Assembly: GCA_001023575.1 (NCBI GenBank)
Contig: CP011489.1
Span: 496,001 to 560,000, forward strand
Reading direction: 5' to 3'
Length of the DNA: 64,000 nucleotides
Source of the DNA: Actinobacteria bacterium IMCC26256
GTDB taxonomy: Bacteria; Actinomycetota; Acidimicrobiia; IMCC26256
Within the stretch, counting starts at the first letter, position 1. The number at the start of each line of letters is the position of its first letter. The position numbers and the translations under genes were made by a program. A model generated the notes under the pieces. That model did not search any database, was not told the origin of the DNA, and worked only from the letters and a program-made list of their open reading frames with translations. Below, piece after piece: positions 30,150 through 50,248 of this stretch.

Positions 30150-31691
30150 ATGGGGCGCAGAATTCTCTTTGTAACAACCGACCAGCAGCGTTACGACGGT
30201 CTCGGTTGTAATGGTGGTCAGGTCGCCGCTACACCAGTGATCGATGGAATCGCTGCAAGTGGTGTGCGGTTTGAGCGTGCGCACCCGCAGAACGTTGTAT
30301 GTATGCCGTCGCGCTCGACAATTATTACAGGGCAGCATGTTCATACTCACGGTGTCTGGATGAATGGTGTTCCACTCCCGATCGATGCACCGAGCGTTGC
30401 GCGCTACTTGAGAGAAGAGGGCGGTTATAGAACGGCGCTCCTAGGTAAGGCTCACTTCGAGCCGTTATTGGATCCGTTCCTTCAGTTCAAAGAGAATCAA
30501 ATTGCAATGAATGACAGTTTCGGACCAATTCGTGGATTCGAACATGCGGAGTTTGCAACACATGCGCCGCGCGGTTATTCGCACTACTCACAGTGGATTG
30601 CAAAGAATCACCCTGACGTCGCAAATGGTTTCTATCCGGTCCTCAACTTCAGCCTTGAAGTAAACGAAGCCGGTGGCGGCGAGACCGGTGCTCCGCAGGT
30701 CTCAACCAACCCTGTCCCGAAGGATCAATACCAGACCGATTGGGTAGCTGATCGCACGATTGCATGGCTCGACTCGCTCGATGCTGAGGACGATTTCTTC
30801 TGCTGGATGTCTTTCCCTGACCCTCATCATCCTTGGGACCCGCCCGCTTCAGAGATTGGGCGCGTCAACTGGCGTGACCTTGATCTTCCTCCTGGCTACC
30901 CACAGGATCGTGCAGAGCGCGAGGCGATTCTCGACGCGAAACCGATTCACTGGCGACGCTGGTACGACGGAACTCTCGTATCCAATTATGAGGCGCCGCG
31001 CGATTGGGTGCCCGCAACTTTGACCCCGGACCAGATTCTTGAGATCAATGCCCGTGTCCATGTCAAGAACATGCTTATCGACGAGGCCCTTGGGCGTGTC
31101 ATGGCGCTCATTGAATCTCGTGGCTGGACCGACTCGACAGATGTCATCTTCACAACAGATCATGGCGAGTTCCAAGGTGATTACGGATTGTTGTTCAAAG
31201 GTCCGTATCACGTTGATTCCCTTATGCGCCTCCCGATGATATGGCGTCCGGCAAAGGACGCGGGGGCAGTGCCTGCGGTAGTGAAGGCACCAGTTGGTTT
31301 GATTGATCTTGCACCGACGTTCTGCGAGATTGCCGGCCTGCCTGTCCCAGAGTGGATGGAGGGAAAGCCGCTTCCACAATCGGATTCGGCCGCAGATGAG
31401 CAAGGGCGCGAACGAGTTCTTACCGTCTGGGACAGCGTGCACCCGAATGGAACTCGGATTCACCTGCGCACCATTTATCGCGACGGCTGGACATGCACCT
31501 CTGCACTCCCGGGGACTGTCCATGACGGAACCGAGGGCGAGCTCTACTGCCACGCCGACGACCCTCTACAGCGTGTGAATCGTTGGGACGATCCATCGGT
31601 TCGGGCACTACGCGATGACCTTGTTGCCGACTGCTTTGAGAACCTGCCCACGTGGGAAGAGCCCCATATGCAGATAGCAGCCCCCGTCTAA
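30150..31691 (+). CDS. Sulfatase (formylglycine-dependent)
   Basis: The 513-residue enzyme has FVTTDQQRYD with the metal-binding Asp at the N-terminus, and VCMPSRSTIITGQ (50-62) with Cys51 in the C-x-P-S-R context that is converted to formylglycine. FTTDHGEFQGDYGL provides the second metal site. No signal peptide is present, so it is cytoplasmic and would act on an imported sulfate ester or a phosphonate-type ester. A formylglycine-generating enzyme is required but none lies in the window. It follows the SRPBCC gene closely under the TetR operator. The dispersed 58-bp palindromic element starts six bases after its stop. Confidence 0.92.
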   Translation: MGRRILFVTTDQQRYDGLGCNGGQVAATPVIDGIAASGVRFERAHPQNVVCMPSRSTIITGQHVHTHGVWMNGVPLPIDAPSVARYLREEGGYRTALLGKAHFEPLLDPFLQFKENQIAMNDSFGPIRGFEHAEFATHAPRGYSHYSQWIAKNHPDVANGFYPVLNFSLEVNEAGGGETGAPQVSTNPVPKDQYQTDWVADRTIAWLDSLDAEDDFFCWMSFPDPHHPWDPPASEIGRVNWRDLDLPPGYPQDRAEREAILDAKPIHWRRWYDGTLVSNYEAPRDWVPATLTPDQILEINARVHVKNMLIDEALGRVMALIESRGWTDSTDVIFTTDHGEFQGDYGLLFKGPYHVDSLMRLPMIWRPAKDAGAVPAVVKAPVGLIDLAPTFCEIAGLPVPEWMEGKPLPQSDSAADEQGRERVLTVWDSVHPNGTRIHLRTIYRDGWTCTSALPGTVHDGTEGELYCHADDPLQRVNRWDDPSVRALRDDLVADCFENLPTWEEPHMQIAAPV

Positions 31692-31696
31692 TCCCC

Positions 31697-31754
31697 AAAC
31701 CCCCGAACTTCGGGTAGTTATTGTCGCTATAGCGATACTCATAGCCCGAAGTTC
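31697..31754 (+). repeat. 58-bp three-palindrome element, copy 1
   Basis: The element contains AAACCCCCGAACTTCGGGT (31697-31715), the palindrome TGTCGCTATAGCGA (31723-31736) and CCCGAAGTTC (31745-31754). The outer blocks are complementary and the left one is itself a hairpin (CCCGAA-C-TTCGGG). The same element, with identical blocks and spacing but different linkers, is present at 49200-49257 on the other strand, also right after a stop codon. Confidence 0.85.
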
Positions 31755-31782
31755 GTTAAGAATCATGGGTAACCTGCGCAGC

Positions 31783-33540
31783 ATGGCTGATCTTGTTATT
31801 CGTAACGGCTCGATTATTGACGGCACAGGCGCTCCTTCTTATGTAGGGGACATCGCGATCGAGGGGGACCGAATTGTCGGTGTCGGCTCGATCGGCGACA
31901 TCTCCACATCTGGCGCGCGAGTCATTGATGCTGACGGACTAATCGTCACTCCAGGGTTCGTTGATATTCACACTCATTACGACGGCCAGCTCACATGGGA
32001 CCCGATGGTTGCTCCCTCGTCGGTCCACGGTGTAACGACGATCGCGGTTGGCAATTGTGGTGTTGGGTTCGCCCCTGCAAAGCCTGATAGTCACGAGTGG
32101 TTGATCGGCCTACTCGAGGGCGTTGAGGATATCCCCGGTACTGCACTCGCTGAGGGTCTCACTTGGGACTGGGAGAGTTTCCCTGAGTATCTAGATTCGA
32201 TTGAGGCGAAGCCGCACACAGTTGATGTTGCATCTCATGTTCCGCACTCGGCGTTACGAACGTTTGTAATGGGGGAGCGCGGTGCTCTGCATACAGAGGC
32301 GCCTAGTGATGATGAACTTGCCCAAATGGCGATGCTCCTTGGAGAGGCGCTGGATGCAGGTGCAATTGGTTTTGCAACATCGCGCACTGAGATTCACCGC
32401 ACGAATACGGGTGAATATATTCCTACGCTTACCTCGTCTGAGAGCGAGTTGATGGCGCTTGCAAGGGTGATGCGTGGTCGAGCGTGGGGAGTTACGCAGC
32501 TGATATCGGATTGCTATCTAACTACCGATGAAGATTTTGCTCGAACGGAGATGGACCTCATCGAGGAGTTTGCACGCGTCTCAGCGCGACCGCTCTCGTT
32601 TACTGTTCAGCAGCCCTATCACGCTCCTGAGCGGTGGCGTTACCTCTTCGATCGTGTTACTGATGCGCGATCTCGCGGTATTGATATAAAACCCCAAGTT
32701 GCAACGCGTCCGATTGGAGTACTCGAGGGGCTAGAAGCGACGGCCAATCCGTTCTTGCTCTGCCCATCCTTTGGAGCCATTGCGCAGTTGCCGCTCGGCG
32801 AGAAAGTATCTGCGCTTCGAGACCCGGCCCTGCGTGCACGCATCATGATCGAGCACGCAGAGTTAATGGAGGCAGTACCCGAAGGACTTCTTCGTCAACT
32901 CTCCGGCGGATTCGATGTCATGTTCAGGCTGAGCGACCCCGTCGATTATGAACTCGATGCAGGGGACTCGCTTGCAGCAGAGGCCAACCGCCGTGGTATC
33001 GAGGCAGTCGATCTTGCATACGACACTCTGCTTGAGGATGGAGGCAAGCGCCTCATCTATATACCTCTCTTTAATTTTGCTCACCACAACTTTGATGACA
33101 TTGCCGAGATGATTTCATCCCCAAATGCGTTGTTCGGTCTCTCTGATGCCGGTGCGCACTGCGGTGCGATCTGTGATGGTTCATCAACGACCTCGTCGCT
33201 AGTTGTATGGGCGAGAGATCGCCGCCACGGCGAACGCCTCCCGATTGAGTCGTTGGTACACGGGCACACACAGCGCGGTGCCGCTCACATGGGGTGGATG
33301 GATCGAGGCGTGATCGCTCCTGGATACCTTGCTGACATAAACGTGATTGACCTTGAGTCCCTAGCGTGCCGCCCGCCGCGTATTGTCCACGATCTCCCCG
33401 CTGGTGGGCGTCGACTAGTGCAGGACGCTTCTGGGTACCGAGCGACCATTAAGAGCGGCTCAATTACTTTTGAGAACGGTGAGCACACCGGCGAATTACC
33501 AGGCACCCTGCTTCGTGGAGCGCGCTCCTTACCGGCGTAG
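31783..33540 (+). CDS. N-acyl-D-amino-acid deacylase-type amidohydrolase
   Basis: Start ATG 31783 (585 residues, MADLVIRNGSIIDGTGAP) is favoured over 31765 because it begins the family-typical strand and TAACCT lies seven bases upstream. GFVDIHTHYDGQLTWDP gives the HxH metal motif, GNCGVGFAP is typical of the D-aminoacylase group, and GLSDAGAHCG carries the metal Asp near residue 450. It should hydrolyse a C-N amide or related bond in a catabolic pathway. It follows the sulfatase after the palindromic element and precedes a CoA-transferase gene on the same strand. Confidence 0.88.
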   Translation: MADLVIRNGSIIDGTGAPSYVGDIAIEGDRIVGVGSIGDISTSGARVIDADGLIVTPGFVDIHTHYDGQLTWDPMVAPSSVHGVTTIAVGNCGVGFAPAKPDSHEWLIGLLEGVEDIPGTALAEGLTWDWESFPEYLDSIEAKPHTVDVASHVPHSALRTFVMGERGALHTEAPSDDELAQMAMLLGEALDAGAIGFATSRTEIHRTNTGEYIPTLTSSESELMALARVMRGRAWGVTQLISDCYLTTDEDFARTEMDLIEEFARVSARPLSFTVQQPYHAPERWRYLFDRVTDARSRGIDIKPQVATRPIGVLEGLEATANPFLLCPSFGAIAQLPLGEKVSALRDPALRARIMIEHAELMEAVPEGLLRQLSGGFDVMFRLSDPVDYELDAGDSLAAEANRRGIEAVDLAYDTLLEDGGKRLIYIPLFNFAHHNFDDIAEMISSPNALFGLSDAGAHCGAICDGSSTTSSLVVWARDRRHGERLPIESLVHGHTQRGAAHMGWMDRGVIAPGYLADINVIDLESLACRPPRIVHDLPAGGRRLVQDASGYRATIKSGSITFENGEHTGELPGTLLRGARSLPA

Positions 33541-40772: not shown

Positions 40773-41981
40773 TCACCCTGTCTCCTTTAGGTCCGGTGGT
40801 GCTCGCCATGCCCACCGAGTATCGCCGTCACCCCCAGGCGCAGCGATCTTGATGAGTCTGTAGCCATCATGCGTTTTCTGAAGGTGATGTCGTTTACAGA
40901 GCCGCACGAGGTTCTCAAAGGATGCAGCTCCACCCTCAGAGAAAGGTTTGATGTGGTCAATCTCTAGTCCGACGGTCATGTCGCATGTTGGTACTTGGCA
41001 GACACGATCTCGTTCCTCAACGGCCGTTCGCAGTGGTGCCGGAATTGCCCTGCCCATATGCGCAACCGTTTTGATGTCTACTCCATCAACGACAAGAAGT
41101 TTTAAGAATGCCTCGCCCAAATACTCAGTTGCACTCGCGACAGGGATCGGCCCGACCCCAGCGATCTCGCAGACTCCTCCATGCTCGGTATGTCCACGTT
41201 TGAGCGCATCAATGTCGATGCGAATGTTGATCACGGCGTTAGATCGAGTTGTTTTTGTTCCCCTTTCGCTCGACTGCTTGGTGGTCGCCTTCTCACAGAG
41301 TGCCATCAATGCGTCAGCTGCGTAGGCCTCGGGTCTTTCATGCGCACCACTCTTACGAGCCGCCTTAAATATCTCGTCCTGTATCGGCTTTAGCGCCGCC
41401 ATTACAAGCGCACCATTAGCAGCAGTCATACGCGCTTTTAGGTTGAAGGAACCATCGAGATCTATCCACGACTTTAAGTAACGCGATTTATGGACCTGCC
41501 TGTGTCGCTCCGCCTCATCAGTGGCAGCTGCAACTACACGCGAGGTTGCATCGCATAGATCGCGCACCGTCGCGTGGCGAGAGAGGTTTAAGAGTTGTGT
41601 CTCAGTATTAGGTGCAACGATCGCGCCACGGGCTACCTCTACAGCCTGTGTCCCCGATAGATCCCCTGAGAGCAACGCTGCAGTCGTCACAGGCAGGTGC
41701 TGCAGTTGATTGGCCAACAACACCACAGACTGCGCCTCGTAGTGGGCACAATCTGTCTCGTTCGAGAGCCACTCAGAAATACTCTTCGCTCCCTCACCCC
41801 TCCAAGCGTTAGTGCGCTCAACCTGGCCAACTGCCACCGTGCGCAGAGAATCGCCAGCCCTGCGAAGTCGCTCGGCGATCTCCACCAATCCGCGAGCACC
41901 GGCAGCATCAACGCAATCAACCTCGAGAGAGGAGATGAAGGCTTGGAGTTCTGTGGTGAGTTGATTTAATCGGTCGAACAT
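40773..41981 (-). CDS. HNH endonuclease, 13E12/DUF222 family
   Basis: Start ATG 41981 (402 residues, MFDRLNQL) is embedded in a LexA box; an upstream in-frame start at 42011 exists but the box and a TATAGT seven bases above ATG favour 41981. The N-terminal DUF222 region (about 1-260) is helical, and the C-terminal HNH domain contains RDRVCQVPTCDMTVGLEIDHIKPFSEGGAASFENLVRLCKRHHLQKT, with paired Cys and the conserved D-H and H-H motifs. Several 13E12 repeat genes in mycobacteria carry SOS boxes. It is a stand-alone nuclease with unclear target; mobile-element origin is possible. Confidence 0.9.
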   Translation of the reverse strand: MFDRLNQLTTELQAFISSLEVDCVDAAGARGLVEIAERLRRAGDSLRTVAVGQVERTNAWRGEGAKSISEWLSNETDCAHYEAQSVVLLANQLQHLPVTTAALLSGDLSGTQAVEVARGAIVAPNTETQLLNLSRHATVRDLCDATSRVVAAATDEAERHRQVHKSRYLKSWIDLDGSFNLKARMTAANGALVMAALKPIQDEIFKAARKSGAHERPEAYAADALMALCEKATTKQSSERGTKTTRSNAVINIRIDIDALKRGHTEHGGVCEIAGVGPIPVASATEYLGEAFLKLLVVDGVDIKTVAHMGRAIPAPLRTAVEERDRVCQVPTCDMTVGLEIDHIKPFSEGGAASFENLVRLCKRHHLQKTHDGYRLIKIAAPGGDGDTRWAWRAPPDLKETG

Positions 41982-41989
41982 ATGTTCGA
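41974..41989. promoter_or_regulatory. LexA (SOS) box
   Basis: TCGAACATATGTTCGA matches the actinobacterial SOS box exactly and lies in an 18-base perfect palindrome. The ATG of the 13E12 gene (41981-41979, minus strand) lies inside it, so LexA would block initiation of that gene. The divergent dsbB-like gene starts 134 bases away and might also be affected. Confidence 0.85.
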
Positions 41990-42122
41990 CTATAAAACAG
42001 GGGTGTGACAACTACTAGTTTTCGGGCCGAAAATTTAGGAATCAGCGAAGTATCTAGTGGGGCCGCATGGGTCATGATTGGGGAGCGTTCCCCACCCTCG
42101 AAGTCCACCATCCGGAGATGCA

Positions 42123-47969: not shown

Positions 47970-49172
47970 ATGACCGGAGCGCTAAATACTCAGCCAGATC
48001 TCCTCGATGGGCAGTTTTATGTGGAGGACCCTTACAGCACGTACGCGTGGATGCGCGAGAACGAGCCGATCTACTGGGACGAGGTCAATAACCTCTGGGC
48101 TGTCTTTCGCTATGACGACATTGTGGCGATTGAGAAGGACAAGGCGACCTTTAAGAATGGTGGCCAGGCGGATAATGGTTACCGCCCCGGCATCTCCTCA
48201 GACCCATCGATCATTGGGCTAGATGACCCGGAGCATCAGGTGCGTCGCCAGTTGGTAGCACGACGCTTTACGCCGCGTGCGGTGACTGGTTTTGAGGAGC
48301 ATGTACGCGAGGTTGTTACTGAGATTCTTGATCGCGCACTCGCTGCGGGCACGGTAGATGCCGTTGGTGACATGGCTGCACCATTGCCTGCATCGATGAT
48401 CGGTGAGCTGATTGGTTTTCCAGATGACATGGTCGGGAAACTTCAGGAGTGGTCAGAGCGAACCATCTCGCTCGGTGGAGGGCCTCGATATTTTGAGGAT
48501 GCGGGCATCATCGCAACCTTTGAGTTCGCTCAGGCATGCGCGGATCTCTACGAGGAGAAGAAGGGCTGCCCTGCCGATGACGTGATGAGCCTCTGGGTTG
48601 ATCATGAAAAGGCCGGCCTCAAGGACTCAAAGGCATTTGGTCTTGATCAGATAACGAGCGATTGCTTGCTCCTACTTGACGGTGGCGCAGAGACAACGCG
48701 CACGGTAATTGCCCGCACCATGTTGAACTTGATCAGTCGCCCGGATCAGTGGGAGTTGATGCGTAACGGCGCAGACCTGACTCTTGCGGTCGAGGAGTTC
48801 ATTCGCTTCGTGACCCCAATCCACAACATGTGCCGCGCTGCTACGCGCGATGTTGAGTTCGGCGGCAAGTTGATCAAAGAGGGTGAGCAAGTTGTGCTCA
48901 TGTATTCATCGGCGAACCGCGATACAGATCACTTCACGAATCCCGAGGAGCTCGACATCACGCGTGACCCAAACATGCACCTTGCGTTTGGATTCGGGAC
49001 ACACTTCTGCCTTGGCTCCAACCTTGCGCGCCTAGAGATTCGTGTCTTCTTCGAGGAGATGATCAAGCGCGTTAGGGGATGGAGTCTTGCCCCGGGTACC
49101 GCTCCGGTTGAGATGCCAAACGCCTTCGTATTCGGAATGCGCGAGATGATGGTCGTTCTCGACCCAGCCTGA
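47970..49172 (+). CDS. Cytochrome P450
   Basis: The 400-residue protein is a soluble class I bacterial P450. The I-helix region LLLDGGAETTRTVIA holds the acid-alcohol pair variant, the K-helix gives EEFIRF (ExxR), and the heme loop FGFGTHFCLGSNLARLEIR carries the proximal Cys. No ferredoxin is next to it. TACGAT lies eight bases above the ATG (leaderless pattern). It probably hydroxylates a substrate then processed by the divergent SDR and flavin enzymes; the 58-bp element follows its stop. Confidence 0.93.
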   Translation: MTGALNTQPDLLDGQFYVEDPYSTYAWMRENEPIYWDEVNNLWAVFRYDDIVAIEKDKATFKNGGQADNGYRPGISSDPSIIGLDDPEHQVRRQLVARRFTPRAVTGFEEHVREVVTEILDRALAAGTVDAVGDMAAPLPASMIGELIGFPDDMVGKLQEWSERTISLGGGPRYFEDAGIIATFEFAQACADLYEEKKGCPADDVMSLWVDHEKAGLKDSKAFGLDQITSDCLLLLDGGAETTRTVIARTMLNLISRPDQWELMRNGADLTLAVEEFIRFVTPIHNMCRAATRDVEFGGKLIKEGEQVVLMYSSANRDTDHFTNPEELDITRDPNMHLAFGFGTHFCLGSNLARLEIRVFFEEMIKRVRGWSLAPGTAPVEMPNAFVFGMREMMVVLDPA

Positions 49173-49199: not shown

Positions 49200-49257
49200 G
49201 AACTTCGGGTAGTTGTTGTCGCTATAGCGACACTAATCACCCGAAGTTCGGGGGTTT
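49200..49257 (-). repeat. 58-bp three-palindrome element, copy 2 (minus orientation)
   Basis: Reading on the minus strand from 49257, the blocks AAACCCCCGAACTTCGGGT, TGTCGCTATAGCGA and CCCGAAGTTC appear in the same order and with the same spacing as at 31697-31754, while the two linkers differ. In this copy the inner palindrome is 16 bases (TGTCGCTATAGCGACA). Its left end touches the stop of the aldo/keto reductase, so both copies lie directly after a stop codon in the same relative orientation. Confidence 0.85.
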
Positions 49258-50248
49258 AGCCGCCTGTTCCCCAGCCGGTTGCTGCGTCGATGCGGGCCAT
49301 GATCTCTTCATCTAGGAGCTCGACAACCTCGAGAGCACCCATGTTGTCATGTACCTGCTCTGGGCGGCTTGCCCCTGTGATTACAGTCGATACGCGCTCG
49401 TTCTTGGAGCACCATGCGATCGCCAACTGTGCGAGCGTGCAGTCGAGTTCGCTCGCGATCTCGGCGAGGCTGCGAACCTTTGCGCTTGCCTTCTCGTTGG
49501 TGAGCATTCCTCGTAGCCACTCATAACCGGGGAGTGCGCCACGGCTGTCCTCGGGCACACCGTCTAGGTACTTGCCGGTAAGCAGTCCAGATGCAAGCGG
49601 GCTCCAAGTTGTGAGTCCGAGGCCGATGTCCTCATAGAGGCGTGCGTACTCGAGCTCAACCTTTACTCGGTCGAGCAAGTGATACTGGGGCTGCTCGACA
49701 ATTGGCTTGTGCAGGTGGTGGCGCTCTGCAATCTCGTAGGCGGCGCGAATGTCATCCGCGTTCCACATTGATGTTCCCCAGTAGTGAGCCTTGCCCTGCG
49801 AGATGATGTCTGACATCGCCCAGACGGTCTCCTCAATTGGGGTCTCAGCATCTGCGCGGTGGCAGTAGAGGACGTCGACGAAGTCGAGGCTTAGGCGCTC
49901 AAGAGATCCATCGATTGCCTGCATGAGGTACTTGCGGTTAAGCGTGTTGGACATATTTACGCCACCGTGGATACCCCAGTAAACCTTGGTCGACATCACA
50001 TACTCGTGGCGCTTCCAACCAAGTTCCTTAACAGCATCGCCCATGATCTGCTCGGACTCCCCGCCGGCGTAGGCCTCAGCGTTGTCCCAGAAGTTCACTC
50101 CATAACTCTTAGCGGCATCCATGCACGCGACTGCAATGTCGAGCCCCATCTGCGTACCGAACGAAACCCAAGAACCAAACGAGAGCTTGCTGACTTTTAA
50201 CCCTGATCGCCCGAGTCGGCGGTACTCCATCTTCGATGCATCTGCCAT
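49256..50248 (-). CDS. Aldo/keto reductase
   Basis: The 330-residue enzyme has the (beta/alpha)8 pattern with [39 protein letters not shown] (catalytic Asp/Tyr), [18 protein letters not shown] and [13 protein letters not shown]. It belongs to the Shaker beta-subunit-like AKR6 group. AGGAG precedes ATG 50248. It would reduce an aldehyde or ketone with NADPH. It is convergent with the P450, with the dispersed element between them. Confidence 0.9.

Follow-up and report, generated by a model that had tools for sequence, protein, structure and literature searches.

Interspersed palindromes are usually ascribed to transposase substrates or terminators. REPs are palindromes of 20–40 bp, in most cases tagged at one end by GTAG or CGTC, which lie downstream of genes, amid tandem and convergent open-reading frames; RAYTs are believed to move those with the GTAG tag, whilst the CGTC type has no dedicated transposase (PMC3733652). 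Inverted pairs of REPs form REPINs, these are tied to RAYTs, and the singlets are read as non-functional remnants (PMC3116915). For ERIC sequences the mechanism of spread is unclear (PMC2229807, PMC10969869). Here we describe a family of 50-bp interspersed palindromes confined to one freshwater Actinomycetota lineage, which from its sequence we read, with roughly even confidence, as a low-copy, REP/ERIC-like palindrome kept as the binding site of a putative protein.

The initial annotation had described a three-block, 58-bp pattern with two copies in the window (the whole 64,000-nucleotide stretch of DNA that was analysed), and both are exact matches (31697–31754 on the plus strand, 49257–49200 on the minus strand) where shuffled sequence gave a chance expectation of 0. 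Both also fold as it described, into stable hairpins with z of about −6 to −7.6, and an Rfam search of the window returned nothing above the gathering score. The unit itself had to be redrawn, it is a 50-bp palindrome, GAACTTCGGG-N9-TCGCTATAGCGA-N9-CCCGAAGTTC, with two 9-base linkers, and the outlying AAACCCCC is a flank, a C-rich version of which accompanies most copies, the strong form usually on one side. Two inverted, 25-bp half-sites, AACTTCGGG-YRNTTRNTG-TCGCTA, meet at a TATA centre; from outside inward each half-site runs through A's, a C/T-rich flank (AAACCCCC in its best form), AACTTCGGG, the linker and TCGCTA, followed by the mirror image. Across 62 half-sites AACTTCGGG is essentially invariant. 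The linkers do vary between copies, as had been claimed, but they are not random, and in the same half-sites follow the consensus Y-R-N-T-T-R-N-T-G, with T-T and T-G strongly retained. The direction of the linkers with respect to the C-rich flank had no significance once orthologues were counted singly.

Table 1 Features of the window around the two palindromic elements.
Feature	Position	Strand	Details
Copy 1, 50-bp palindromic element	31705..31754	.	Exact match
Copy 1 blocks	31705-31714, 31724-31735, 31745-31754		Linkers 31715-31723, 31736-31744
Copy 1 AAACCCCC flank, C-rich side	31697..31704	+	
Copy 2, 50-bp palindromic element	49200..49249	.	Exact match; core 49219-49230
Copy 2 AAACCCCC flank, overlaps aldo/keto reductase stop codon	49250..49257	-	
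Sulfatase gene, stop 5 nt ahead of copy 1 flank	30150..31691	+	ORF; Pfam Sulfatase E 1e-30
Amidohydrolase gene, start 10 nt past copy 1, tandem arrangement	31765..33540	+	ORF, Pfam
Cytochrome P450 gene, ends 27 nt short of copy 2	47970..49172	+	ORF, Pfam
Aldo/keto reductase gene, convergent with P450 gene, ends at copy 2	49256..50248	-	ORF, Pfam
DUF222 + HNH endonuclease gene of multicopy family	40773-42011	-	

Both copies had been placed right after a stop codon, in one orientation relative to the gene before them. Copy 1 does follow the sulfatase stop. Copy 2 starts inside the aldo/keto reductase stop codon and has the end of the convergent P450 gene close by on its other side, so that it lies downstream, 3′, of two convergent genes.

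Genome-wide copies were counted with the full 50-bp core, allowing up to three mismatches. The window's own genome (G000), a 2.46-Mb chromosome in a single contig that is 99.93% complete, holds 18 copies, and two MAGs of the same genus, both incomplete, hold seven (G001) and six (G003), the family therefore extends well beyond the two window copies, with block and linker spacing the same in every copy of the three genomes. The search found none in G002, a more distant genome of the same genus, and none in 57 other genomes; in an order-wide search of 58 genomes, matches were confined to the three carriers. Among 84,980 bacteria and archaea, represented by one genome per species, exact matches occurred only on contigs of two MAGs. 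These are titled Actinomycetota and Bifidobacterium breve; the public MAG with the latter label (CAMDSG010000009.1 and other contigs) is G003 judging by its contig coordinates, and the label looks wrong. The known carriers are three closely related genomes. A viral origin was rejected, as two scans of viral contigs (2.9 million contigs) gave no match. Searched without a mismatch limit, a profile of 31 copies and their flanks recovered these copies again and added a solo arm in G001, with nothing intermediate above noise; its scores were sharply bimodal and it found no decayed full-length copies. In G000, the core 12-mer TCGCTATAGCGA and the arm palindrome CCCGAACTTCGGG occur solely inside elements.

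All 18 copies in G000 are intergenic or at an intergenic edge, two open-reading frames ending within a copy, and 16 sit 3′ of a gene as judged from open-reading frames and Pfam matches. Nine copies have a tandem gene context, seven a convergent one and two lie between divergent genes (FKBP/small membrane protein and GDPD/WhiB); the convergent share is in excess, 7 of 18 against about 15% of sampled intergenic bases (p = 0.014). Distances from stop codon to element are mostly 3–46 nt, with one of more than 140, at two loci the stop codon is inside the element, and the genes next to the copies share no function. With dnaA at position 379 and a change in GC skew sign near 1.2 Mb, the copies leave 768 kb around the terminus (889–1657 kb) free of elements. 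Under uniform scatter this gap has p = 0.003, or 0.008 with close pairs counted once, though the test is post hoc, run after the gap was noticed, and gives a lead only; a Kolmogorov–Smirnov test on the scatter of copies gave only 0.09.

Repeats of another kind, the DUF222-HNH genes, do occur inside this gap. The window carries one member of this multicopy family (Table 1), which resembles the mycobacterial 13E12 repeat family; by profile there are 20 copies in G000, 15 in G001 and 6 in G003 (more by DNA match), and none was found in G002, an incomplete genome. Fourteen aligned copies have a common leader, TTGTCACACCCCTGTTTTATA.TCGAACATATGTTCGA, in which TCGAACATATGTTCGA looks like an actinobacterial LexA (SOS) box. 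A link between the palindrome and these genes was rejected, since neither the element nor its arm lies near the 14 copies examined.

Eleven orthologous pairs, partly non-independent, were aligned between carriers, in which 4 of 352 block positions, 25 of 198 linker positions and 221 of 2967 flank positions (about 7.4%, omitting two left flanks that fail to align) had changed (Fisher p = 2.5e-7 for blocks against flanks and 1.5e-8 for blocks against linkers). Block changes far below those of flanks and linkers imply that selection holds the block sequence in place, and as the profile without a mismatch limit found no more-degraded copies, a demand for good matches is unlikely to have produced this conservation. 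Together with the copy number and the position of most copies 3′ of a gene, it bears out the selected, dispersed gene-end element that the initial annotation had proposed. Recent spread or conversion between copies could supply part of the block identity: four copy pairs in G000 agree at every linker base, two of these pairs despite distant loci and dissimilar flanks, which implies that copies were duplicated at some time. Between L047 and L065, orthologues of window copy 1, 8 of 18 linker positions differ in register and only 5 once one copy is turned round, a hint that the palindrome was inverted in place.

Covariation between the arms was lower than in 500 of 500 shuffles and the two half-linkers within an element are less alike than randomly paired ones; this implies selection on letters and not on base pairing. 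Selection for an RNA hairpin was rejected, the GU vs. AC counts (45 vs. 32) and the pair counts lending it no support. A bidirectional transcription terminator, or a hairpin stabilising mRNA 3′ ends, duplicated to many gene ends, would explain the position of the family, with 16 of 18 copies just past a stop codon and the convergent enrichment, and it would fit the strong predicted hairpin, the flanks, which are C-rich and G-rich and include a short T3, and the deletion relics, in which one small hairpin, CCCGAAGTTCGGGG or CTGAACTTCGGGG, survives. It would not explain the exact letters, as a terminator would not require the same 32 letters everywhere, and what is kept is base identity rather than structure, the pairing being without covariation. 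Two copies lie between divergent genes, and of the GC-rich hairpin and following U tract of an intrinsic terminator the hairpin is present, but only 2 of 23 tails are U-rich. Arms that do not covary and tails that are rarely U-rich imply that what is conserved is neither an RNA hairpin nor a classical terminator, and the terminator which the initial annotation had suggested, though it gains a little from position and fold, we consider unlikely.

Copies have also been lost, at three loci through deletions that left one arm. G001 has one CCCGAAGTTCGGGG where G000 has an element, a DUF559 gene and an element; G000 retains AAACCCCCGAACTTCG at 1854k, where G003 holds a whole element; and at the 272k locus G003 keeps the left arm, with the core deleted and several changes in the remaining right arm. 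At the 1779k, 1885k, 2338k and L062 loci the element-less alleles are rearranged intergenic sequence which cannot be polarised, and no target duplication is visible in them. As presence and absence are unpolarisable at several loci, mobility may outweigh host function. A non-autonomous, MITE- or REPIN-like element, moved in trans by a putative transposase, would owe its block conservation to enzyme recognition and recent spread. Consistent with this, the family is lineage-restricted, extragenic and present at some loci but absent in relatives, the pairs with identical linkers are distant or neighbouring, and the 1779k copy, missing from G001, is identical to the 440k copy. A transposase substrate would explain the dispersal but not the conservation at orthologous loci, since neutral inserts should decay at the flank rate between species and the blocks did not. 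PF01797 (Y1_Tnp/RAYT) had no match in the 99.93%-complete G000, whilst 5 of 14 control genomes matched, and mobilisation by a RAYT was rejected for this absence. G000 has no solo half-site that might be the end of an insertion sequence, and with the half-site and arm palindrome found nowhere else in the genome there is no autonomous transposon with matching ends, as a MITE would have. The REP or REPIN identity that the initial annotation had suggested does not hold. The inverted halves and intergenic position are those of an extragenic palindrome, but the 18 copies and one solo arm (in G001) are not a high-copy set with decayed members and singlets, and no constant GTAG or CGTC tag was found, TAG following CGGG in fewer than half of the 62 half-sites and TGA, CGA, CAT, TGG and other triplets elsewhere. 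With no RAYT, no visible target duplication and no conserved REP tag, the family is not REP/REPIN by definition, despite its similar look and position, and we hold movement by a transposase to be a rather doubtful explanation of the whole.

Some copies bracket genes, as would a site-specific recombination or attachment site gaining and losing gene cassettes. At L049 4001–7545 (genome 885539–889083), two elements whose linkers are identical enclose a 3.4-kb segment that carries APH/choline-kinase-like and DAO-GCV_T genes; in G003 the segment is missing and one element is present. At L044 4001–5082 (genome 412139–413220), another identical-linker pair brackets a DUF559/AbiEi-type gene that terminates within the second element, at its stop codon, and G001 lacks the gene and shows a solo arm; a third pair brackets a GDPD gene. 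Homologous recombination or slippage between repeats accounts for the segment differences, however, and most copies are single and beside housekeeping genes. The tyrosine recombinases found were XerC/XerD-type and genome-specific ones only, and a candidate common to the carriers and absent in G002, an incomplete genome, proved to be XerD in its usual pyrG-trpS-scpA neighbourhood. With no common tyrosine recombinase beyond XerC/XerD, the attachment site suggested in the initial annotation appears very improbable, even with two loci where copies surround a segment missing in a relative.

A DNA-binding protein would account for the invariant blocks, the fixed 9-bp spacers, the free linkers, the lack of covariation and the indifference to orientation. 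The protein we infer would be dyad-symmetric and sequence-specific, a dimer or tetramer which contacts the outer blocks and core on double-stranded DNA and bridges the fixed 9-bp spacer; selection would then keep the letters of outer blocks and core at each locus and leave pairing and linkers free. Its sites may be useful collectively and dispensable singly, some being lost through deletions that spare one arm, and their location just past stop codons would be the least harmful one, where they may in addition halt or hinder transcription arriving from both directions. The likeliest account would combine a REP/ERIC-like past, in which copies first spread, and a function today as a site for a protein. 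By analogy, a new DNA-organising protein, in the style of nucleoid occlusion or domain marking, might dock on the chromosome at the 18 sites; it would require the 50-bp dyad, exclude the terminus region and propagate sites by copying and not by point mutation, but this narrower proposal we think very unlikely. A small family without a RAYT, in which the exact letters are selected and the linkers are free, as orthologous loci show, allows host use and selfish spread to be separated in one small genome, and if it is bound by a protein, the 50-mer could serve as bait for a new DNA-binding factor in understudied freshwater actinobacteria.

Like REPs and REPINs (PMC3733652, PMC3116915), the elements are extragenic and palindromic, their two inverted units make up a long hairpin, most of them lie 3′ of genes or amid tandem or convergent ones, and single-unit remnants occur. 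They differ in having no RAYT/Y1, no constant GTAG or CGTC tag and 18 copies rather than hundreds, and in their invariant 9-bp spacers, conserved centre and lack of decayed full-length copies. With ERIC/RU-type repeats and bacterial MITEs (PMC2229807, PMC10969869) they share the form of short, imperfect, non-coding intergenic palindromes, although at 50 bp they are shorter than RU-1/ERIC, at about 127 bp (PMC2759123). Unlike ERIC and MITEs, no target duplication is seen here, in element-less alleles with rearranged intergenic DNA, and the pattern of blocks and linkers carries in-place selection. Noc, SlmA and MatP bind palindromic host-protein sites scattered on chromosomes, these are 12–16 bp long and can arise by point mutation. 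The family resembles such sites in its exactly kept letters, its intergenic position and a possible avoidance of the terminus, but differs in that its protein is putative and that a 50-bp site must be copied.
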